Both the position numbers and the translations under genes were made by a program. A stretch of DNA of 64,000 nt, from positions 62,001-126,000 of the forward strand of contig JAUIBT010000002.1 in the NCBI GenBank assembly GCA_030428255.1, written 5' to 3'. The notes beneath the pieces are model-generated. The model did no database searches and was not told the origin of the DNA. It was given only the letters and a program-made list of their open reading frames with translations. Of the stretch, positions 10,610-23,871 are shown piece by piece (the stretch's first letter is position 1; each line of letters opens with the position of its first letter). The stretch is from Alphaproteobacteria bacterium (GTDB taxonomy: Bacteria; Pseudomonadota; Alphaproteobacteria; UBA7985; JAUIBT01).

Positions 10610-11437
10610 CTAAGCCAGCCCTAATATCTGGCGTGCCTGCTGCCAGCTTGCGACAGGGCGTTGGTGGCGTTCGCAAATCTCTACCGCGCGGCGCACCAGG
10701 GCCGCGTTCGACGGCGCCAGAGTGTTGCGATCCAAGCGCACATTGTCTTCCAAGCCGGTTCTGGCGTGCCCACCGGCAGCGATCGCCCAGTCATTGACCG
10801 CGATTTGTTTGGCACCGATGCCCGCCGCGCACCAGGGCGCGTCTTTGCCAAACAGGCGATGTACCGTTCGAACATAGAAATCAAACACCTCCCGATCTGC
10901 GGGCATGGCGTTCTTAACCCCCATAACGAACTGCACATAGGGCGTGCCCGCTAACTGTCCCGCGTCGGCCATCTCCTTAGCCCGGAAGATATGGCTGAGG
11001 TCAAAGGCTTCGATTTCGGGTTTGACCTGGTACTTAAGCATCTCGGCCGAAAGCCAATCGACAAGCTCTGGCGGGTTTTCGTAGACCCGCGTTGGGAAAT
11101 TGTTCGAGCCAACCGAGAGCGAGGCCATGTCCGGGCGCAAAGGCAGCATGCCTCCGCGCTCTTTGCCCGCTCCGGAGCGGCCGCCGGTTGAAAACTGGAT
11201 GATCATCCCTGGGCAATGCTTGGCGATGCCCTCCTTCAGTGCGGCGAACTTCTGCGGGTCAGAGGTGGTGGTGCCATCATCGTTGCGCACATGGGCGTGC
11301 AGGATTGATGCGCCTGCTTCAAAGGCCTCGTGGGTCGACTCGATCTGCTCGCTAATCGTGATCGGCACCGCCGGATTGCTGGCCTTGGTCGGGACGCTGC
11401 CCGTAATGGCAACGCAGATAATGCAGGGTGTCGTCAT
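10610..11437 (-). CDS. BKACE-family beta-keto acid cleavage enzyme (DUF849)
   Basis: This 275-residue TIM-barrel enzyme resembles 3-keto-5-aminohexanoate cleavage enzyme, which uses acetyl-CoA to split a beta-keto acid into a CoA ester and acetoacetate. The metal-binding HxH is visible as ILHAHVR (His47, His49). Further family blocks are IQFSTGGRSG, MASLSVGSNNFPTRVYENPP and ARTGLEDNVRLDR near the C terminus. The last part carries the substrate-loop residues of the family. Its actual keto acid is unknown, since BKACE members range over many substrates. The neighbouring AraC gene is 139 bp upstream on the same strand and may control it. Confidence 0.88.
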   Translation of the reverse strand: MTTPCIICVAITGSVPTKASNPAVPITISEQIESTHEAFEAGASILHAHVRNDDGTTTSDPQKFAALKEGIAKHCPGMIIQFSTGGRSGAGKERGGMLPLRPDMASLSVGSNNFPTRVYENPPELVDWLSAEMLKYQVKPEIEAFDLSHIFRAKEMADAGQLAGTPYVQFVMGVKNAMPADREVFDFYVRTVHRLFGKDAPWCAAGIGAKQIAVNDWAIAAGGHARTGLEDNVRLDRNTLAPSNAALVRRAVEICERHQRPVASWQQARQILGLA

Positions 11438-13682: not shown

Positions 13683-15419
13683 TCAGAAAATGTCGGGCTC
13701 GCGGGTCGCCCCGCCGAAGTCGCTGCGCAGAAAATCAAAATCACAGCCCTTGTCGGCCTGTTGAATGTGTTGGCTGAACATCCAACCAAAGCCACGCTCA
13801 AAGCGCGCTTCAGGCGGCTGCCAGCGCGCGCGCCGCACCGCCAACTCCGCCTCGCTCACCTCCAGCTCCAGCCGCCGCGCCGGGATATCCACCACGATCA
13901 TGTCCCCCGTCTCGACCAAGGCCAGCGGGCCGCCAATATAGGCTTCAGGCGCGATATGCAGCACGCAAGCGCCAAAGGCCGTGCCCGACATGCGCGCATC
14001 CGACAGCCGCAGCATGTCGCGATGCCCGTGTTTCAGCAGGGCTTGCGGCATGGGTATCATGCCCCACTCGGGCATGCCCGGCCCGCCCTGCGGCCCTGCG
14101 TTGCGCAGCACCAGCACGTGCTCTGGAGTCATGGGATAGTCCGGGTCCTCGATGATCGCCTTCATCTCGGGGTAGGAGTTGGCGACAATCGCCGGGCCAC
14201 GGTGCTGATAGAACTTCGGATCGCAGGCCGCGGGTTTGATCACCGCGCCATCGGGCGCCAAATTGCCCTTCAAGACCGCCAAAGAGCCTTCGTGATAGAC
14301 CGGATTGCTCAAAGGCCGGATCACGTCATCGTTGTAGCTGGTCGCGCCCGCCAACACCTGCTCCCAGGTCTCGCCCGAGACCGTCAGCGCCGAGCGATCC
14401 AGCTTATCCCCCAGCGCCTTCATCAGCGCCAAGAGCCCGCCCGCGTAATAGAAATCCTCCATCAAATAGCGGTCCCCAGAAGGGCGAATATTGGCGATCA
14501 CCGGGGTCGTGCGACCTATGCGGTCCAGATCATCCAGCTCCAGCGGGACGCCCGCGCGTCGGGCCATGGCGATCAGGTGGATGATGGCGTTGGTCGAGCA
14601 GCCCATGGCCATAGTGGTGGTCACAGCGTTCATAACCGCAGCGGGCGTCAGGATGTGATCGGGCGTCACATCCTGCCAGACCATCTCGACTATGCGCCAC
14701 CCGCAGGCCGCCGCCATACGCTGATGCGCCGAGTCCGCCGCCGGGATCGACGAGGCACCCGGCAGGCAGAGCCCCAAGGCGTCAGCAATCGCGGTCATGG
14801 TGCTGGCGGTGCCCATGGTCATGCAGTGGCCATAGGAGCGCGCAATCCCCGCCTCGACCCCATCCACATAGGCGTCATCAACGGTGCCCGCCCGGCGCTC
14901 GTCCCAGGCCTTGAAGGCGTCGGTGCCCGAGCCCAGCGTGCGCCCCGCGAAGTTGCCCCGCAGCATAGGCCCCGCAGGCAGATAGACGAAGGGCAGCCCC
15001 ATCGAGATGGCCCCCATCACCAGCCCCGGCGTGGTCTTATCGCAGCCGCCCATCAGCACAGCGCCATCCACGGGGTGCGAGCGCAGCAGCTCCTCGGTCT
15101 CCATGGCCAGCAAGTTGCGGTAGAGCATGGCGGTAGGTTTGACGAACTGCTCGGCCAACGACATGGCTGGCAGCTCAATCGGCCAGCCCCCGGCCTGCAA
15201 CACGCCGCGCTTGACCCAGTCGGCGCGCTCGCGCAGGTGTGCGTGGCAGGGGTTGATCTCTGACCAGGTGTTGATGATGGCAATGGCGGGCTTGCCCTGC
15301 CAGTCCGCACGGCTGATGCCCATTTGCAGCGCTCGGCTGCGATGCCCCAGCGAGCGCATGTCCTGCGGGGCCATCCAGCGCGCCGAGCGCAGGTCAGCGT
15401 AAGTTTTAGTTCGGGTCAT
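13683..15419 (-). CDS. Sugar-acid dehydratase, IlvD/EDD family (L-arabinonate dehydratase-like)
   Basis: This 578-residue Fe-S dehydratase converts an aldonate into its 2-keto-3-deoxy form. Three cysteines sit where the [2Fe-2S] cluster is bound in rhizobial L-arabinonate dehydratase: Cys58 (NPCHAH), Cys126 (GGCDKTTP) and Cys199 (GHCMTMGTAS). Lys128 follows in the Mg site. The C-terminal block LRNAGPQGGPGMPEWGM and SDARMSGTAFGACVLHIAPE is the sugar-acid subfamily version, unlike true IlvD. The substrate could be L-arabinonate, D-xylonate, D-fuconate or similar. It is a lone gene, with no sugar dehydrogenase or aldolase beside it. Confidence 0.88.
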   Translation of the reverse strand: MTRTKTYADLRSARWMAPQDMRSLGHRSRALQMGISRADWQGKPAIAIINTWSEINPCHAHLRERADWVKRGVLQAGGWPIELPAMSLAEQFVKPTAMLYRNLLAMETEELLRSHPVDGAVLMGGCDKTTPGLVMGAISMGLPFVYLPAGPMLRGNFAGRTLGSGTDAFKAWDERRAGTVDDAYVDGVEAGIARSYGHCMTMGTASTMTAIADALGLCLPGASSIPAADSAHQRMAAACGWRIVEMVWQDVTPDHILTPAAVMNAVTTTMAMGCSTNAIIHLIAMARRAGVPLELDDLDRIGRTTPVIANIRPSGDRYLMEDFYYAGGLLALMKALGDKLDRSALTVSGETWEQVLAGATSYNDDVIRPLSNPVYHEGSLAVLKGNLAPDGAVIKPAACDPKFYQHRGPAIVANSYPEMKAIIEDPDYPMTPEHVLVLRNAGPQGGPGMPEWGMIPMPQALLKHGHRDMLRLSDARMSGTAFGACVLHIAPEAYIGGPLALVETGDMIVVDIPARRLELEVSEAELAVRRARWQPPEARFERGFGWMFSQHIQQADKGCDFDFLRSDFGGATREPDIF

Positions 15420-15905: not shown

Positions 15906-16700
15906 TCACAGCATGGATAAAAAGCGTTCCAGTTCCTTGTCCGCCACAGGCACACTGTGCTCCGTGCCAGGATACGCCCCGCTGTCCACGTCGGCTTTGA
16001 ATTCGGCAAAGGCGGCCCTGCGTTCAGCCTGCAAGCGCGCGTACTCGGCAGCAAAGTTGCGATAACTCTTGGCGTGGCGCGGTCTGTGCTGCTTGGTGCA
16101 ACCCAGCACGTCCTCGGCAAACAGGTACTGAGCGTCCGCCCCAGCGCCCGCGCCCATGCCAAACATGACCAGCGAGGAGCGCCGCGAAATCTCGGCCGCG
16201 ATGCGATCCGGCACCACCTCCAGTTCGGCGCCAAAGGCTCCGGCGGCCTCCAGCGCCTGAACCTGTTGCCAGATGGCAAAGGCACTGTCCGCCGTCTTGC
16301 CCACCGCCTTAAAGCCGCCCGTCCAGGTGGCTTTCGAAGGAATCAGGCCCAAATGGGAGACCACCGGAATGCCATCGTCCGCCAAAGCTTTAACCGTCGA
16401 CAAGGCGCTGGCGCAATAACAGCAGTCGCCGCCGATCTGCATGACCCGATGAGCGGCGCGCAAATAGTCCTCAGCGGTGATAAGCTGGCCATACAGCAGC
16501 CCAACTTGCACGAAGCAAGAGCCCGCAGCCTGACGCATGTCCGGCGTCCACAGCGGGTCGATGATGCTCAGGATGTCGATGCCAGCGTCTGCAGCTGCGG
16601 CAGCCTCCTCTGGCGTTTCGACGAACAGCATGGACAGCTTGCGTTGGCCCTTCATGGCGCGAATATCAGCCACAGTCGGGCGCGCGTGATAGAGTGACAT
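15906..16700 (-). CDS. Divergent PanB-like (ketopantoate hydroxymethyltransferase family) protein
   Basis: This 264-residue TIM-barrel protein is related to 3-methyl-2-oxobutanoate hydroxymethyltransferase. Family traces are DAGIDILSIIDP, VVSHLGLIPSKATWTGGFKAVGKT, the catalytic-Glu block ELEVVPDRIAAEI and FGMGAGAGADAQYLFAEDVLG. Compared with true PanB, the metal-ligand segment VADLPFGSY and the KLEGG lysine are not recognisable (QVGLLYG and QIGGD stand there). The start region TAYD is also replaced by FVET. A pantothenate role is therefore doubtful. It is 9 bp from a Rieske ferredoxin gene and probably in one operon with it and the desaturase-like gene. Confidence 0.75.
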   Translation of the reverse strand: MSLYHARPTVADIRAMKGQRKLSMLFVETPEEAAAAADAGIDILSIIDPLWTPDMRQAAGSCFVQVGLLYGQLITAEDYLRAAHRVMQIGGDCCYCASALSTVKALADDGIPVVSHLGLIPSKATWTGGFKAVGKTADSAFAIWQQVQALEAAGAFGAELEVVPDRIAAEISRRSSLVMFGMGAGAGADAQYLFAEDVLGCTKQHRPRHAKSYRNFAAEYARLQAERRAAFAEFKADVDSGAYPGTEHSVPVADKELERFLSML

Positions 16701-16709
16701 GGTCCCGCC

Positions 16710-17021
16710 CTAAATCTGAATGAAGACGCGACCGCCTTCGACCTTGACCGGATAGGTGCCCAGGTTCTCGCAGACCGGCGCCCGCAGGGCCTTGCCGGTG
16801 CGATAGTCGAACTGGCCATTGTGCTTAGGGCACTCGATCACATAGTCCATGACCAAGCCGTCCTCCAAGTGCACCTGTTCGTGCGTACACAGCCCGTCGG
16901 TGCAAAAAAAGCTGTTGTCTGGGCTGCGGTAGATGGCGAAAGTCCGTTCGCCGTGATCAAAGCGGATCAGGTCCTCCTCTTCGATGTCGTCGGCGGCGCA
17001 AGCGTCGATCCAGTCGGCCAT
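16710..17021 (-). CDS. mocE: MocE-family Rieske [2Fe-2S] ferredoxin
   Basis: This 103-residue soluble Rieske protein has cluster ligands Cys45-x-His47 (GLCTHEQVHL) and Cys64-x2-His67 (IECPKHNGQFDYRTG). In rhizopine catabolism MocE passes electrons to the oxygenase MocD. I start at ATG 17021 (MADWIDACA), because the longer frame upstream is arginine-rich repeat sequence. The gene sits between the desaturase-like mocD and the PanB-like gene in the same direction. No ferredoxin reductase (MocF) is present here. An acidic N terminus (DDIEEED) is typical for this group. Confidence 0.88.
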   Translation of the reverse strand: MADWIDACAADDIEEEDLIRFDHGERTFAIYRSPDNSFFCTDGLCTHEQVHLEDGLVMDYVIECPKHNGQFDYRTGKALRAPVCENLGTYPVKVEGGRVFIQI

Positions 17022-17076: not shown

Positions 17077-17126
17077 CGGCGGCAAGCCCCTAAGCGGCGG
17101 CGAGCCCCTATGCGGCGGCGGGCCTC
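17077..17126. repeat. 18-bp tandem repeat spanning the mocD stop codon
   Basis: CGGCGGCAAGCCCCTAAG and CGGCGGCGAGCCCCTATG are followed by a partial third unit. Read on the minus strand the unit duplicates the end of the desaturase gene, so GCCGCCGCATAG is followed by GCCGCCGCTTAG and GCCGCCGAGTAG, giving three successive in-frame stop codons. Confidence 0.8.
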
Positions 17127-18217
17127 AGGGCGGTCTGGTGCAGGTCTTCGCGATAGGGTCTGGCGGTCGCGGGCAGCGCACGTTTGATAAACAGCTCCTC
17201 GTTGCGCAACTGACGCCACAGCACCGGGATGATCTCAGCGTAGGCCGCCAGCATCGAGGGGCTAGCGGCGGGCAGGTCGTGCTTGATCTTGGCGTGCAAG
17301 GCGGGCAGGCGATAATAGGGCACCATGGGGAACATGTGGTGCTCGACATGGTAGTTCATGTTCCAATAGATAAAGCGGCTGATGGGATTGATGTAGACGG
17401 TGCGGCTGTTGAGGCGGTGGTCCAGCACGTTCTCAGCCAAGCCTGCATGCTGCATGACGCCGGTCACAACGTGGTGCCAAGCGCCATAAAGGCGCGGCAG
17501 CCCCACCAGCATCAGCGGCAGGATCGAGCCCATCCAGATCGCAGCAGCGATGACCAGGGCATAGATCGCCAACCAGATGCGCGCAACGCGGATCACCTTG
17601 GGCTGTTCGCTTTGCGGAATGAAGGTCGCTTCCTCGGCACTCAGGCGGCCCGAGGCGTTGAGCAGCATGCGTGACCAGCCGGTCCAGGCGTCCACCAGCC
17701 CCAGCAGGTTGGCCAGGATGCGCGCCAGCTTGGGCGGGCGCATGGCGACGATCTCCGGATCGCGCCCCACGATCAGCGTGTCGGTGTGATGGCGCGCGTG
17801 CGACCAGCGCCAGGTGATCGGATTGCGCACCATCATGAAAGAGGCAATCTGATAGACGACATCGTTCATCCAAGGGGTGCGAAAGGCGGTGCCGTGCGAG
17901 CACTCGTGCCAGCGCGAGTCCATGGCTGAGCCGTAGAGAACCCCATAGGCCAGCCAAAAGGGCAGCGACACCAAGCTGGGCCAGACGGCAAAACTGCCCG
18001 CGACCTGTGGCCACAAAGCGATGCCCGCGCCGGCGAAGGCCAGCATGCAGCCATAAAGGGTGATGGTATCGCGAACGGCCGGGCCATTCTCGCGCTTCAT
18101 CAGCGCCTTCATCTCAGCGCGGGGGATATCGCTGTGGTACCATTGGGCGGCGGCCAGGCCGGTTTCAACGGCGCGCACGCCATCGGCCCCCAGCATGCTG
18201 TAATCACGTCTGCTCAT
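17108..18217 (-). CDS. mocD: MocD-like di-iron fatty-acid-desaturase-family oxygenase
   Basis: This 369-residue integral membrane di-iron oxygenase has several hydrophobic helices. Histidine boxes are HECSH (104-108), HARHH (140-144), HH with a later QHAGL (248-258) and HVEHH (290-294). The neighbouring MocE-type ferredoxin supports assignment to the MocD branch, which O-demethylates rhizopine in rhizobia, rather than to a lipid desaturase. The real substrate is inferred, not shown. The 3' end is part of an 18-bp tandem repeat. It is divergent from the lacI gene, and a LacI-type operator lies between them. Confidence 0.8.
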   Translation of the reverse strand: MSRRDYSMLGADGVRAVETGLAAAQWYHSDIPRAEMKALMKRENGPAVRDTITLYGCMLAFAGAGIALWPQVAGSFAVWPSLVSLPFWLAYGVLYGSAMDSRWHECSHGTAFRTPWMNDVVYQIASFMMVRNPITWRWSHARHHTDTLIVGRDPEIVAMRPPKLARILANLLGLVDAWTGWSRMLLNASGRLSAEEATFIPQSEQPKVIRVARIWLAIYALVIAAAIWMGSILPLMLVGLPRLYGAWHHVVTGVMQHAGLAENVLDHRLNSRTVYINPISRFIYWNMNYHVEHHMFPMVPYYRLPALHAKIKHDLPAASPSMLAAYAEIIPVLWRQLRNEELFIKRALPATARPYREDLHQTALRPAAA

Positions 18218-18378: not shown

Positions 18379-19410
18379 ATGGCGCGACGCCCGACAATCG
18401 AAGATCTTGCTCAGTCCGCTGGCGTCAGCACGGCCACCGTTGATCGCGTCCTGAATGGACGACAGAAGGTGCGCAAGGAGACCGCTCAGCGGGTCTTCGA
18501 TGCAGCGCAAAAGATCGGCTATCATGGTACCGGCTTGATCGCCCAGCGCATGCGCGCCGACCTGCCCTATATCCGCTATGGCATCGTGTTGCATAAAGAG
18601 CGCCAGGATTTCTACCAGGACTTCCGCGCCGAGCTGGAGCGCAGCGTTCTGGCCCTAACCGGAGTGCGCGCTGATCTGAAAATTCGCTTCTCGCCGTCGC
18701 AAATCCCGGCGGATTTCGTCCAGGAAATGCAGACTCTATCGCGCGAGGTTGACGTGCTGGCGGCCACGGCCATCACCGACAATGCCGTCACCGAGGCGGT
18801 GGAGGATTTGCAGGCGCGCGGCCTGCCCTGCTTTTCGATTCTCAACGACTTTGCGCCTGGCGTGCGTCAATCCTACCTTGGGCTTAACAACTTGAAAGTT
18901 GGACGAATTGCTGCCTCTGTCATCGCCATGGCGGTGCACAACCCGGGCAAGGTGGCGGTCTTCGTTGGCGGGCACCGCTGGCATGGGCACGAGCTGAGAG
19001 AAACCGGCTTTCGCTCCTTCCTGCGCGAAAAGGCACCGCGCTTTCAGGTGCTAGAGACCTTGGTCAATTTGGAGACGCGCGAGCTGACTTATGAAGCAAC
19101 GCTGGACATCTTGCACCGCCACCCCGATTTGCGCGGTATCTATTGCGCGGGCGGGGGCATGGAAGGTGCGATTGCAGCGTTGCGCGAAGTGCGCCAGCCG
19201 GGCGACGTGGCGCTGGTGGTCAGCGAGCTAACCTCTGAATCGCGCAAGGCCCTGGCCAATGGCTTCGTAACGCTGGCGATTGGCACCCCCTTGCCGCTGC
19301 TGTGTCGTGACTTGTTTGACGCCATGACCCGCGCCGTTTTGGACGGCATGACAGGCAGCGCCGCCCAGCACTTTTTACAACCCGATCTCTATTTGCCAGA
19401 GTGCATCTAG
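18379..19410 (+). CDS. LacI-family transcriptional regulator
   Basis: This 343-residue repressor has an N-terminal helix-turn-helix (residues 5-26, TIEDLAQSAGVSTATVDRVLNGR) and hinge-helix region KVRKETAQRVFDAAQKIGYH. A periplasmic-binding-protein-like sensor domain follows, from about residue 65 to the end. The TVDRVLNGR form is common in LacI regulators of inositol and rhizopine genes. It lies between the minus-strand mocDE genes and the plus-strand iol-type genes. Near-identical operator-like 16-mers occur on both sides. The ligand is probably an inositol derivative, by context. Confidence 0.88.
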   Translation: MARRPTIEDLAQSAGVSTATVDRVLNGRQKVRKETAQRVFDAAQKIGYHGTGLIAQRMRADLPYIRYGIVLHKERQDFYQDFRAELERSVLALTGVRADLKIRFSPSQIPADFVQEMQTLSREVDVLAATAITDNAVTEAVEDLQARGLPCFSILNDFAPGVRQSYLGLNNLKVGRIAASVIAMAVHNPGKVAVFVGGHRWHGHELRETGFRSFLREKAPRFQVLETLVNLETRELTYEATLDILHRHPDLRGIYCAGGGMEGAIAALREVRQPGDVALVVSELTSESRKALANGFVTLAIGTPLPLLCRDLFDAMTRAVLDGMTGSAAQHFLQPDLYLPECI

Positions 19411-19451: not shown

Positions 19452-19608
19452 CAAATGATAGAATAGGTCGATCGGGCATTGACCGAATCGCCTTGGCAAG
19501 CGAAGCCTTGTGCGGCAAACGCGGCACGAAGATCCGTGCGGTCCAAGCGGGCTTGCCGACCGACCTGCTCAATATACGCAGTGCCCTCCCTCGAGACGAA
19601 GCAGAACC

Positions 19609-20430
19609 ATGACCATGCAATTTGCGCTCAACCACATGACGGCAGCCAAGGCCAGCTTTGTCGAGCTTCTGGACCTGGCCAGCGCTTTGGGATGCGTCGG
19701 TATTGAGCTGCGCAACGACCTGCCCCAACCCCTGTTTGACGGCCTGCACCCCAGCGAGGCGCGCGCACGCATCGAGGACAAGGGCTTGCGGCTGCTGGCT
19801 CTGGCCGAGGTCAAACGCTTCAACGATTGGTCCGACGTCAAGCGCCAAGAGGCCGCCGCCCTGATCGACCTTGCCCGCCAAGCCGGTGCAGAGGCCGTCA
19901 GCCTCATTCCGCGCAACGACGGCCTGGGCCTGGGCAACGGCGAGCGCCAAGCCCATTTGCGCCTGGCCCTGCGCAACCTGAAACCCATGCTGGAAGACGC
20001 GGGCCTGATCGGCCTGGTTGAACCGCTGGGCTTTGAGATCTGTGCCCTGCGCTATAAGCAAGAGGCGGTGGAGGCGATTGAGGCGCTGAACGCCAGCGAC
20101 CTCTTCGCCTTGGTTCACGATACCTTCCACCACCACCTGGCGGACGGCGGCCCGCTGTTCCCCCAGCACACCGGCATCGTCCATGTTTCGGGCGTGATCG
20201 ACCCGGCGCTGGCCACCAACCAAATGCAGGACGCCCACCGCGTGCTGGTGACCGACCAAGACCGGCTCGGCAATTTGGTGCAAGTCCAGGCGCTGCAAGC
20301 TGGGGGCTATCGCGGAGCCATCTCCTTTGAGTGCTTTGCCAGCTCGGTTCACACCAGCGCCACTTTGCAACAAGACCTGGCGCGATCTATCGCCCTGTTT
20401 CAGACCCAAGGCAGTGCGCAAGCCGCCTAA
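19609..20430 (+). CDS. IolI-like inosose isomerase (xylose-isomerase-like TIM barrel)
   Basis: This 273-residue protein belongs to the AP-endonuclease-2/xylose-isomerase-like TIM barrels. The opening FALNHMTAAKASFVELLDLASALG, then VGIELRND, matches the IolI pattern, in which 2-keto-myo-inositol is isomerised. Metal-ligand segments are GLVEPLGFE, FALVHDTFHHHL, VHVSGV and the terminal GAISFECFA. I start at ATG 19609 (MTMQFALN); a longer frame would run through the promoter. It is the first gene of the plus-strand inositol-type operon. IolE, IolH or MocC activities cannot be excluded from sequence alone. Confidence 0.78.
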   Translation: MTMQFALNHMTAAKASFVELLDLASALGCVGIELRNDLPQPLFDGLHPSEARARIEDKGLRLLALAEVKRFNDWSDVKRQEAAALIDLARQAGAEAVSLIPRNDGLGLGNGERQAHLRLALRNLKPMLEDAGLIGLVEPLGFEICALRYKQEAVEAIEALNASDLFALVHDTFHHHLADGGPLFPQHTGIVHVSGVIDPALATNQMQDAHRVLVTDQDRLGNLVQVQALQAGGYRGAISFECFASSVHTSATLQQDLARSIALFQTQGSAQAA

Positions 20431-20517: not shown

Positions 20518-21522
20518 ATGACCATCCGTTTTGGAGTTCTGGGCGCCGGGCGCATCGGTCAAGTCCATGCCCGCGCCATCGCCTCGGTCGAGGGGGCCAG
20601 CTTGGTCGCCGTGTTCGACCCTATGGAGGCTGCCGCCGAGGCCGTGCAGAGCAAATACGGCTGTGACATCCGCAGTCTTGAGGCCATCATCGCAGCCGAC
20701 GACATCGACGCCGTGGCCATCTGTACACCGACCGACACCCACGCCGACCTAATCGAGCGCCTGTCGCGCGCGGGCAAGGCGATCTTCTGTGAAAAGCCCA
20801 TCGACCTGTCTTTGCCCCGGGTCAAGGACTGCCTGAAAGTGGTTGAGGACACCGGCGCGACGCTCATGCTGGGCTTTAACCGCCGCTTTGATCCCGACTT
20901 TGAAGCGCTGCACGCCGCCATCGCCGCAGGCAAAATCGGTGAAGTCGAAATGGTGACCATCACCAGCCGCGACCCGGGCGCACCGCCCTATGCCTATATT
21001 CAGGTCTCCGGCGGCATATTCCGCGACATGACCATCCACGACTTCGACGTGGCCCGCTGGATGTTGGGCGAAGAGGTCGCCAGCGTCCAAGCCGCAGCCT
21101 CAGTGCTGGTCGATCCAAAGATCGGCGAACTGGGCGACTACGACAGCGTCAACGTAATTTTGCGCACCGCCAGCGGCAAACAGTGCGTCATCACCAACAG
21201 CCGCCGCGCCGCCTATGGCTATGACCAGCGCATCGAGGTGCTGGGCTCAAAGGGTGTGGCCTCTGCTCAAAACACCCACGAAGCCAATATTGAGATCGCC
21301 ACCGCTGACGGCTATCAGCGCCCGCCGCTGCTCAATTTCTTCATGACCCGCTATACGGCAGCCTATGCGGCGGAGATCGCCCACTTGGTCGCCGCCCTTA
21401 CCAACAAGAGCCAGCCACGCACCACTGGCCACGACGGCCTGATGGCGTTAGCCTTGGCCGAAGCAGCGCTCAAGTCGGTTGCAGAAGGACGGACCGTCGC
21501 GCTTACGGAGGTGCTGGCCTAG
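20518..21522 (+). CDS. iolG: Inositol 2-dehydrogenase (Gfo/Idh/MocA family)
   Basis: This 334-residue NAD-dependent oxidoreductase oxidises myo-inositol or a stereoisomer to an inosose. A Rossmann fold starts with GVLGAGRIGQVH. The catalytic Lys93 is in CEKPIDL. Asp170 and His174 in IFRDMTIHDFDVARWMLG correspond to the IolG catalytic pair. The LGFNRRFDP segment is typical of IolG and IdhA. The gene follows the IolI-like gene by 87 bp and has AGGAG before the start. The preferred stereoisomer is not readable. Confidence 0.9.
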   Translation: MTIRFGVLGAGRIGQVHARAIASVEGASLVAVFDPMEAAAEAVQSKYGCDIRSLEAIIAADDIDAVAICTPTDTHADLIERLSRAGKAIFCEKPIDLSLPRVKDCLKVVEDTGATLMLGFNRRFDPDFEALHAAIAAGKIGEVEMVTITSRDPGAPPYAYIQVSGGIFRDMTIHDFDVARWMLGEEVASVQAAASVLVDPKIGELGDYDSVNVILRTASGKQCVITNSRRAAYGYDQRIEVLGSKGVASAQNTHEANIEIATADGYQRPPLLNFFMTRYTAAYAAEIAHLVAALTNKSQPRTTGHDGLMALALAEAALKSVAEGRTVALTEVLA

Positions 21523-21825: not shown

Positions 21826-22653
21826 ATGAGCCCCCTACTGCGCCGACCGACCGGCCAAACCGGTCAGATCCACGCGATCACCCCGGAAGACGCCAACTGG
21901 GGCTATGTCGGCTTTGGCGTCTATCGCCTCAAGGCCGGCCAAAGCGCACGCGAGGCGACTGGCGAGCGCGAAGCCATCTTGGTGCTGGTCGAGGGCAAGG
22001 CCAAGCTGCAAGCCGCAGGACCAGACTTCGACCAGGACTTCGGCGAGCTGGGCGAGCGCATGTCTGTGTTTGAAAAGACCCCGCCGCATTGCCTCTATGT
22101 GCCCAACGACAGCGACTGGAGCGCGACTGCCACCAGCGACTGCACGCTGGCGGTCTGTAGCGCGCCGGGCAAGGGCGGCCATGCAGCCCAGGTCATCGGC
22201 CCGGTTGGCATCGAGACAGTAACGCGCGGCAAGGGAGCCAACACGCGCTACATCAATACGATCGCCATGGAGGAGCGCGACGTGGCCGACTCTTTGCTGG
22301 TGACCGAGGTGTTTACGCCGACCGGCAACTGGTCTTCCTACCCGCCGCACCGCCATGACGAGGATGATTTTCCGCGCATGACCTACCTGGAAGAGACCTA
22401 CTACCACCGCCTGAACCCCGCGCAGGGCTATGGCCATCAGCGGGTCTGGACCGAGGACGGCGCGCTGGACGAGACTATGACCGTACACGATCACGACCTA
22501 GTGCTGGTGCCGCGCGGCCACCATCCCTGCGGCGTGCCCTGGGGCTATGAGATGTATTACCTCAATGTCATGGCAGGTCCGTTGCGCAAGTGGCGCTTTC
22601 AGAATCACCCCCATCACGACTGGATCTTTCAGCGCGACAGCGCTGGCGATTGA
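21826..22653 (+). CDS. iolB: 5-deoxy-glucuronate isomerase
   Basis: This 275-residue bicupin enzyme converts 5-deoxy-D-glucuronate to 2-deoxy-5-keto-gluconate in myo-inositol breakdown. The C-terminal cupin shows the IolB metal site: YPPHRHDEDD (His175, His177), YLEETYYHR (Glu189/190) and VPRGHHPCGVPWGYEMYYLNVMAG with its histidine. The N-terminal half is the degenerate cupin. The start MSPLLRR is preceded by GAGGAGA. The gene firmly ties the operon to inositol catabolism. IolC, IolD and IolE are not in the window. Confidence 0.93.
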   Translation: MSPLLRRPTGQTGQIHAITPEDANWGYVGFGVYRLKAGQSAREATGEREAILVLVEGKAKLQAAGPDFDQDFGELGERMSVFEKTPPHCLYVPNDSDWSATATSDCTLAVCSAPGKGGHAAQVIGPVGIETVTRGKGANTRYINTIAMEERDVADSLLVTEVFTPTGNWSSYPPHRHDEDDFPRMTYLEETYYHRLNPAQGYGHQRVWTEDGALDETMTVHDHDLVLVPRGHHPCGVPWGYEMYYLNVMAGPLRKWRFQNHPHHDWIFQRDSAGD

Positions 22654-22689: not shown

Positions 22690-23871
22690 ATGCCCTATGA
22701 TTCTGATAAATCCGCCAGCTTCTATCGCGAGGCAGACTGCCGCCTGGCCGACCTTGAGGCCCTGTGTCAACAGAGCCTAAGTCTGTCCGATCTCAGCTTT
22801 GCCGATGCGGTCGAAAAGAATGTGCCGATCTATTCGGCCGCCGCGGTTGTCCCCCTATTGGCCGACCCGAACAAGCGCCTGGACTTGCTGAGCGAATGGG
22901 CCTGGATCTTCCGTGCCTCGGCGGGCGTCATCGCCATACAAGGCGCGGTCAGCGACACTAGGGCGCTGGACGAGGCCAACGCGGTCTTTGATGCGATCAT
23001 CGCTGAGGAGAAGGCTGGATCGGGCGGCGGCGGCGACCACTTTGCCAAGCCCGGAGCCAATGACCGCATTTGGAACTCGTTGCAAAAGCTCTGCCTGCGC
23101 GCGCCTGACGTGTTTGCGCGCTGCTTTGCCAGCCCTGCGATTGCGGGTGCTTGCGAGGCTTGGCTAGGCCCACGCTACCAGGTCACAGCTCAGGTTAACT
23201 TGGTGCGCCCCGGAGGCGCCGCCCAGAGCGCGCACCGCGACTACCATTTGGGCTTCCAAACGGCTGCGGGTGCTGCGGCCTATCCGGCCCACGTCCACGA
23301 GCTGTCCGCTGCCCTGACATTGCAAGGCGCAGTGGCGCACACCGACATGCCCTTAGAGTCCGGGCCAACCAAACTGCTGCCCTTCTCTCAGCTTTATGAC
23401 GCGGGCTATGTTGCCTTCCGGCGCCCTGAATTCAGCGACTATTTCGAGGCCAACTACATCCAGTTGCCCTTGAGCCAGGGGGATGCGGTGTTCTTTAACC
23501 CGGCTCTATTCCACGCTGCGGGGGCCAACACCTCGGCCGACGTACAGCGCCTGGCCAACCTCTTGCAGATCTCTTCGGCCTTTGGGCGTCCGATTGAAAC
23601 CGTCGATCGCCGCGCGATGAGCAAGGCGCTCTACCCCGTGCTGCGGGCGGCACAAGCCGAGGCGCGCATGAGCGCCTGCGAGATCGCGGCTGTGGTGGCG
23701 GCCAGCGCCGAAGGGTATGCTTTCCCGACCAATTTGGATACCGATCCGCCGGTCGGTGGCCTGGCGCCCGAAACCCAGCAGACCATCATAGCCCGTGCCT
23801 TGGGCGAAGACTGGAGCGCCGAGCAGCTCAACGCGGCTTTGGACGCGCGGGAGGAACGCAGCCAGGCCTAA
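22690..23871 (+). CDS. PhyH-family Fe(II)/2-oxoglutarate dioxygenase
   Basis: This 393-residue protein has the phytanoyl-CoA dioxygenase fold. Iron ligands are His182-x-Asp184 (AHRDYHLGF) and His275 (FFNPALFHAAG), with Arg287 (VQRLANLLQ) for 2-oxoglutarate. ESGPTKLLPFSQ is the typical central block. Bacterial PhyH enzymes hydroxylate or demethylate small molecules. Here the gene ends the inositol-type operon, 36 bp after iolB, so an O-methyl-inositol or related compound is a reasonable guess. A long helical N-terminal extension (about 150 residues) precedes the core. Confidence 0.78.
   Translation: MPYDSDKSASFYREADCRLADLEALCQQSLSLSDLSFADAVEKNVPIYSAAAVVPLLADPNKRLDLLSEWAWIFRASAGVIAIQGAVSDTRALDEANAVFDAIIAEEKAGSGGGGDHFAKPGANDRIWNSLQKLCLRAPDVFARCFASPAIAGACEAWLGPRYQVTAQVNLVRPGGAAQSAHRDYHLGFQTAAGAAAYPAHVHELSAALTLQGAVAHTDMPLESGPTKLLPFSQLYDAGYVAFRRPEFSDYFEANYIQLPLSQGDAVFFNPALFHAAGANTSADVQRLANLLQISSAFGRPIETVDRRAMSKALYPVLRAAQAEARMSACEIAAVVAASAEGYAFPTNLDTDPPVGGLAPETQQTIIARALGEDWSAEQLNAALDAREERSQA

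Follow-up and report, generated by a model that had tools for sequence, protein, structure and literature searches.

A PanB-fold protein encoded beside MocD/MocE-type oxygenase genes appears to have lost the ketopantoate site and may pass one-carbon units to tetrahydrofolate

The window analyzed here is a stretch of 64,000 nucleotides from the genome assembly of an Alphaproteobacteria bacterium (GCA_030428255.1, contig JAUIBT010000002.1). Three of its genes, coding for a MocD-type oxygenase, a MocE-family ferredoxin and a PanB-like protein, lie head to tail on the reverse strand, separated by 86 and 9 bp, and they apparently form one operon in which the PanB-like gene is the last (Table 1). 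Divergent from them run the genes for a LacI-family regulator, a TIM-barrel protein, IolG, IolB and a PhyH-family dioxygenase. At 66–70% identity, the window MocD resembles MocD-type proteins found in rhizobia and in marine relatives, and the regulator is 51–54% identical to regulators that adjoin the rhizobial mocDEF genes. The Msi119-like TIM-barrel protein is 48–55% identical to neighbors in loci L019–L024 and is conserved in such clusters, while the PhyH dioxygenase is conserved beside iolB/iolG in L002 and L005 (57–59% identity) and may be a further oxygenase acting on an inositol derivative. No MocF-type reductase gene was found beside the window genes. The first-pass annotation had linked the PanB-like gene to an oxygenase and a ferredoxin, and this link is borne out by the MocE and the desaturase-fold MocD-type protein that adjoin it. 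On the same strand, 486 bp downstream of the operon, the window encodes an L-arabinonate dehydratase (PRK13016, 1062 bits; 13683–15419), and similar IlvD/Edd genes are found near some distant PanB-like loci (L049, L051, L055, L059, and L065). A 3-oxoadipate:acetyl-CoA acetyltransferase gene (BKACE; NF053568, 496 bits, cut-off 350) lies at 10610–11437, also on the reverse strand.

Table 1. Genes of the locus and codons of the aligned active-site positions in the PanB-like gene (window coordinates).
Feature	Position	Strand	Evidence
PanB-like protein gene (264 aa)	15906..16700	-	PF02548 134 bits, PanB fold, residue analysis
E159-x-E161 codons; E161 aligned with catalytic PanB E181	16218..16226	-	alignment
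H116 codon, aligned with PanB H136	16353..16355	-	alignment
Y95-C96-A97 codons, aligned with PanB K112-I113-E114	16410..16418	-	alignment
G67 codon, aligned with PanB Mg ligand D84	16500..16502	-	alignment
MocE-family Rieske [2Fe-2S] ferredoxin	16710..17021	-	TIGR02377 176.5 bits, cut-off 136
MocD-type oxygenase, fatty-acid-desaturase fold; first gene of apparent operon	17108..18217	-	PF00487 131.7 bits
LacI-family regulator, FixV type, divergent	18379..19410	+	PF00356/PF13407
TIM-barrel sugar isomerase/epimerase, Msi119-like	19603..20430	+	PF01261
IolG, inositol 2-dehydrogenase	20518..21522	+	TIGR04380 424.5 bits, cut-off 355
IolB, 5-deoxyglucuronate isomerase	21826..22653	+	TIGR04378 323.7 bits, cut-off 205
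PhyH-family Fe(II)/2-oxoglutarate dioxygenase	22690..23871	+	PF05721 97 bits

The sole Pfam match of the PanB-like protein is Pantoate_transf (cut-off 28.7 bits), the family of PanB (ketopantoate hydroxymethyltransferase, EC 2.1.2.11), and it stays far under the cut-offs of the curated panB equivalog TIGR00222 (105.6 bits against 207.55/207.6) and of PRK00311 (120.7 bits against 272). Its AlphaFold model has a mean pLDDT of 84.6. In Foldseek the model matches solved PanBs with a TM of ~0.77 over nearly the whole length, and in VIA it matches the best PanB entries (1m3u, 1o68, and 3vav) with Z of 27.8–28.7, the value for E. coli PanB (1M3U) being 27.8. The next-best fold follows at Z 15.3, with aldolase and isocitrate-lyase-type barrels at Z 14–15. 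Such a near-full-length match indicates that the product is a full-length PanB-fold protein and not a chance ORF.

We aligned 82 PanB-like sequences with nine canonical PanBs, including E. coli PanB, which serves as the numbering reference. Residues D45, S46, D84, K112, E114, H136, and E181 are present in all nine canonical PanBs, of which D84, K112, and E114 are invariant by construction because the set was chosen by them (these nine also group together in the tree). In the window protein the Mg ligand D84 is replaced by G67 (G in 66 of the 82 PanB-like sequences), the substrate lysine K112 by Y95 (Y in 67/82) and the acidic E114 by A97 (A or S in 60/82). The Mg ligand D45 aligns with window D48, a position that drifts in the family (D in 19, P in 19, F in 12, and G in 9 of the 82), as does S46, and the segment around E. 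coli residues 49–60 is deleted. Other residues are shared with PanB: H136 (window H116) and the catalytic E181 (window E161) are each retained by 81 of the 82 sequences, including members with as little as ~37% identity, and G138, P141, G154, D209, D217, and further residues of the C-terminal half are conserved as well. The family also has conserved residues of its own, namely C at position 113 (72/82; window C96), E at position 179, which is V in canonical PanB (79/82; window E159), and H at position 229 (80/82; window H209).

Based on this alignment, the Mg/ketoacid half of the PanB active site appears to be lost and H136/E181 kept; for the assignment of residues to these halves we also presume, in part, what is generally held about PanB. 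The first-pass annotation had proposed that the homolog lost key ketopantoate-synthase residues while keeping the barrel and the catalytic glutamate, and the alignment with E. coli PanB, which could have overturned this proposal, agrees with it, as the metal ligands are not conserved in the PanB-like family. Its placement of the losses stands for the second Mg-binding aspartate (G67), whereas the lysine position is Y95 in GGDCCYCAS, just after the QIGGD segment to which it had been assigned. The loss of E114 and the deletion near residues 49–60 went unmentioned there. In the tree, one branch with a support of 100/94 sets the nine canonical PanBs apart from the PanB-like sequences, which by this measure form a sister family separate from canonical PanB.

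The next question is whether such a protein can still serve pantothenate synthesis. In the window's genome (99% complete) neither panC nor a further PF02548 gene was found. All seven of the other genomes with a PanB-like gene that were checked also carry a full-length, higher-scoring PanB homolog, which in five of the seven lies beside panC. According to PMC3082293, the second panB of Rhizobium etli CFN42, RHE_PE00443 on plasmid p42e, retains just 5 of 12 active-site residues, has no detectable metal-binding domain and, even under constitutive expression, fails to complement a panB mutant (data not shown there); no role was assigned to it beyond not being pantothenate synthesis. The first-pass annotation had named complementation of a panB mutant as an outcome that would overturn its reading. 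The last 43 kb of p42e, the expected place of locus 443, contain a single PanB-annotated gene, whose product shares 58% identity with that of the window, and we take this gene to be RHE_PE00443 itself. It ends a mocD-mocE-mocF row, and its host carries another panB that is functional, in contrast to the window's genome. The residue losses, the separate clade, the missing panC and missing second PanB, the coexisting canonical PanBs and the failure of the R. etli ortholog to complement together support the view that the ketopantoate reaction was lost. A canonical PanB function of the window protein was thus rejected as highly improbable, and the earlier suggestion that it carries out a new reaction is likely to be correct. 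The organism itself is likely a pantothenate auxotroph, judging from the gene content of its genome.

For the genomic context, a first scan of genome contigs gave 14 loci, the family was then widened by genome searches, and neighbor genes were scored by tblastn with reference proteins. MocE is found near 32 of 40 PanB-like loci, a sample from one family, and near none of seven canonical panB loci. The gene set of the window, with MocD, MocE, the PanB-like protein, the regulator, the TIM barrel and inositol genes, recurs in many loci, and MocF adjoins in L020, L021, L023, L024, L144, and L167. In the window's clade the PanB-like gene commonly lies among inositol genes, and several clusters already hold a set of iol genes. 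The FixV-type LacI and Msi119 TIM-barrel genes beside mocDEF were tied earlier to an inositol derivative, in an account that does not mention panB (PMC3538637). More distant PanB-like genes (~36–45%) adjoin MocD-type genes in small genomes (L049, L051, and L059), where MocE was not detected near the pair in these 1.4 Mb genomes, or lie near genes for PhyH (L056, L063, and L064), TauD (L066 and L067) or a Rieske oxygenase (L059); no link to folate genes was seen at these distant loci. Some divergent members have no recognized oxygenase nearby. Two further arrangements were seen in this survey: a 1.6 Mb alphaproteobacterial genome (G170) has four PanB-like genes (L055, L056, and L057), two of them in tandem beside PhyH dioxygenases, and one contig of genome G575 (L136) has two different PanB-like/MocE clusters in opposite directions, one with MocD and one without.

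Rhizopine (3-O-methyl-scyllo-inosamine) is an O-methylated inositol compound of root nodules; its catabolism uses MocDEF as the oxygenase system, whose presumed task is the removal of the O-methyl group. Genuine rhizopine clusters are present on a plasmid of R. leguminosarum A1 (pRLa11; L167) and on one of Phyllobacterium zundukense Tri-48 (L169), and both contain mocD-mocE-mocF-PanB-like-purU on one strand, with a FolD-coding sequence right behind purU. Both have a mocR-type gene (rhizopine_MocR 751 bits in L167, cut-off 650) and, ahead of mocD as well as of the gene for the substrate-binding protein, pairs of MocR boxes as defined in PMC10107442. Compared with the mocDEF rhizopine operon of Sinorhizobium meliloti L5-30 and R. 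leguminosarum, the window has the same type of oxygenase and ferredoxin, but its regulator is of the FixV LacI type and not MocR, it has iol genes in place of mocABC, and MocF is absent beside its genes. We found no described role of the PanB-like protein in rhizopine, pinitol or demethylation in the open-access literature that we searched.

The folate genes are not confined to the rhizopine clusters. In L144 a single strand encodes MocE-TIM-MocF-PanB-like-FolD-PurU-IolG, with gaps of 3–17 bp from MocE to PurU. Elsewhere purU genes 73–77% identical to the rhizobial purU are found directly downstream of the PanB-like gene (L002), convergent with it (L124), between iolG and iolC (L068), at the close of an ABC-transporter row as purU-folD (L021/L023), or simply close by (L123), and none of the seven canonical panB loci has purU nearby. 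A Clostridiales Family XIII MAG (L011, 1–13000) encodes three metal-site-less PanB homologs with Fhs, FTCD_C, FolD, Fau, and an MFS transporter, and no MocD/MocE match or recognized oxygenase was found in that stretch. The recurring partner of the PanB-like protein across these layouts is tetrahydrofolate (THF) one-carbon chemistry. Only ~9 of ~60 moc-type loci examined, it should be said, have purU or folD nearby.

PanB itself handles methylene-THF. As the residues for its ketoacid partner are lost in the PanB-like protein, we propose that the latter charges THF with a one-carbon unit taken from the product of MocD, so that it would act as the one-carbon acceptor in the oxidative O-demethylation of methylated inositols, a reading that we consider reasonably probable. 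In this mechanism MocD, with electrons from MocE and from MocF or another reductase, would convert the O-CH3 group by hydroxylation into a hemiacetal (O-CH2OH). From there, the PanB-like protein may join the hydroxymethyl or formaldehyde unit to THF to give 5,10-methylene-THF, which would be the folate half-reaction of PanB reversed, with no part played by the Mg-bound ketoacid half. Formate could be freed and THF regenerated by FolD followed by either PurU or the formate-THF ligase Fhs acting in reverse, and the freed inositol would enter IolG and the Iol pathway. Finding FolD and PurU encoded with demethylation genes points to the formation of methylene-THF and its oxidation to formate, and the component still missing from this route is one that loads the carbon onto THF. 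A precedent is the purU-mabO-folD operon of Paenarthrobacter nicotinovorans, in which oxidative N-demethylation gives methylene-THF that is processed by FolD and PurU (PMC3891541). The logic is the same, yet there the demethylase itself was reported to yield methylene-THF from an N-methyl group, whereas in the present proposal the methyl group is O-linked, the oxygenase has the desaturase fold and a PanB-fold protein acts as the acceptor.

THF binding, the one-carbon transfer and the exact substrate are inferred. The substrate would be rhizopine in the genuine moc clusters and probably an O-methyl-inositol of the pinitol/ononitol type in the window's organism; the latter are plausible since mocDEF homologs of R. 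mesoamericanum are induced by Mimosa root exudate, of which pinitol is the most concentrated component (PMC5789663).

Several observations count against the one-carbon acceptor reading. Since formaldehyde condenses with THF on its own, the step has no strict need of an enzyme. The PanB-like gene of the window has no adjacent folD or purU, nor other folate one-carbon genes near it in the window, and no PurU above the family cut-off was found in the window's genome, although Fhs is encoded elsewhere in it (903 bits) and could stand in for PurU. The divergent members beside PhyH, TauD or Rieske-oxygenase genes, or beside no recognized oxygenase, also indicate that an O-methyl-inositol is not always the substrate.

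One alternative is that the PanB-like protein is a PanB-fold pseudoenzyme, a non-catalytic or structural partner of MocD/MocE for instance one that aids assembly or that binds the hemiacetal or folate and keeps hold of it. The loss of the known metal and substrate residues and the usual position beside MocE/MocD would fit this, but the retention of H136 and E181, together with the new near-invariant polar residues E179, H229, and C113, looks like a working active site, and the folD/purU/fhs neighbors would be left unexplained; we consider a pseudoenzyme unlikely. Another option is a carbon–carbon lyase or aldolase that acts on an inositol breakdown product (an inosose or keto-deoxy acid), in line with the aldolases and isocitrate-lyase-type enzymes of this barrel class, with the TIM-barrel neighbors and with the common place of the gene among inositol genes in the window's clade. 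Since the Mg and lysine residues that stabilize an enolate are gone, iol genes are already present as a set in several clusters, and the PanB-like gene tracks with oxygenases and folate genes even where iol genes are absent, this role is quite improbable. There is also only a slim chance that the protein captures or releases formaldehyde with a carrier other than THF, or speeds the breakdown of the hemiacetal, while folD/purU handle spontaneous THF adducts: the folate gene link is indeed not universal, but PanB, as the parent enzyme, already works with methylene-THF, and a folate locus also surrounds the Clostridiales relative. That the family is a divergent yet genuine ketopantoate hydroxymethyltransferase, as its fold and its database annotation would have it, is hardly credible given the missing catalytic residues, the genome without panC, the separate canonical PanB in other genomes and the published non-complementation by RHE_PE00443 (PMC3082293).

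Returning to the one-carbon acceptor reading, the neighbors in the wider family suggest that the PanB-like protein is a general partner of oxidative demethylases. A more tentative extension, which we hold to be possible but not the likelier outcome, is that the metal-site-less PanB-fold family acts as a general C1-to-folate transferase for such demethylases, with desaturase-fold partners in moc-type operons and PhyH, TauD or Rieske partners in other alphaproteobacteria. By receiving the hydroxymethyl group straight from the product of the oxygenase, it would avoid free formaldehyde, and it would parallel the GcvT-type THF domains without being related to them.

These results bear on genome annotation. 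In the annotated records that we viewed, databases name the PanB-like genes as 3-methyl-2-oxobutanoate hydroxymethyltransferase, and many rhizobial and marine genomes carry such a gene annotated as panB, which can corrupt predictions of vitamin B5 synthesis. For the window's genome the gene could yield a false call of panB present with panC absent. If the proposed function is true, it would fill a missing step in the catabolism of rhizopine and methyl-inositols, namely the fate of the methyl carbon, and would show how PanB can become a formaldehyde-to-folate enzyme once the metal/ketoacid half is dropped.
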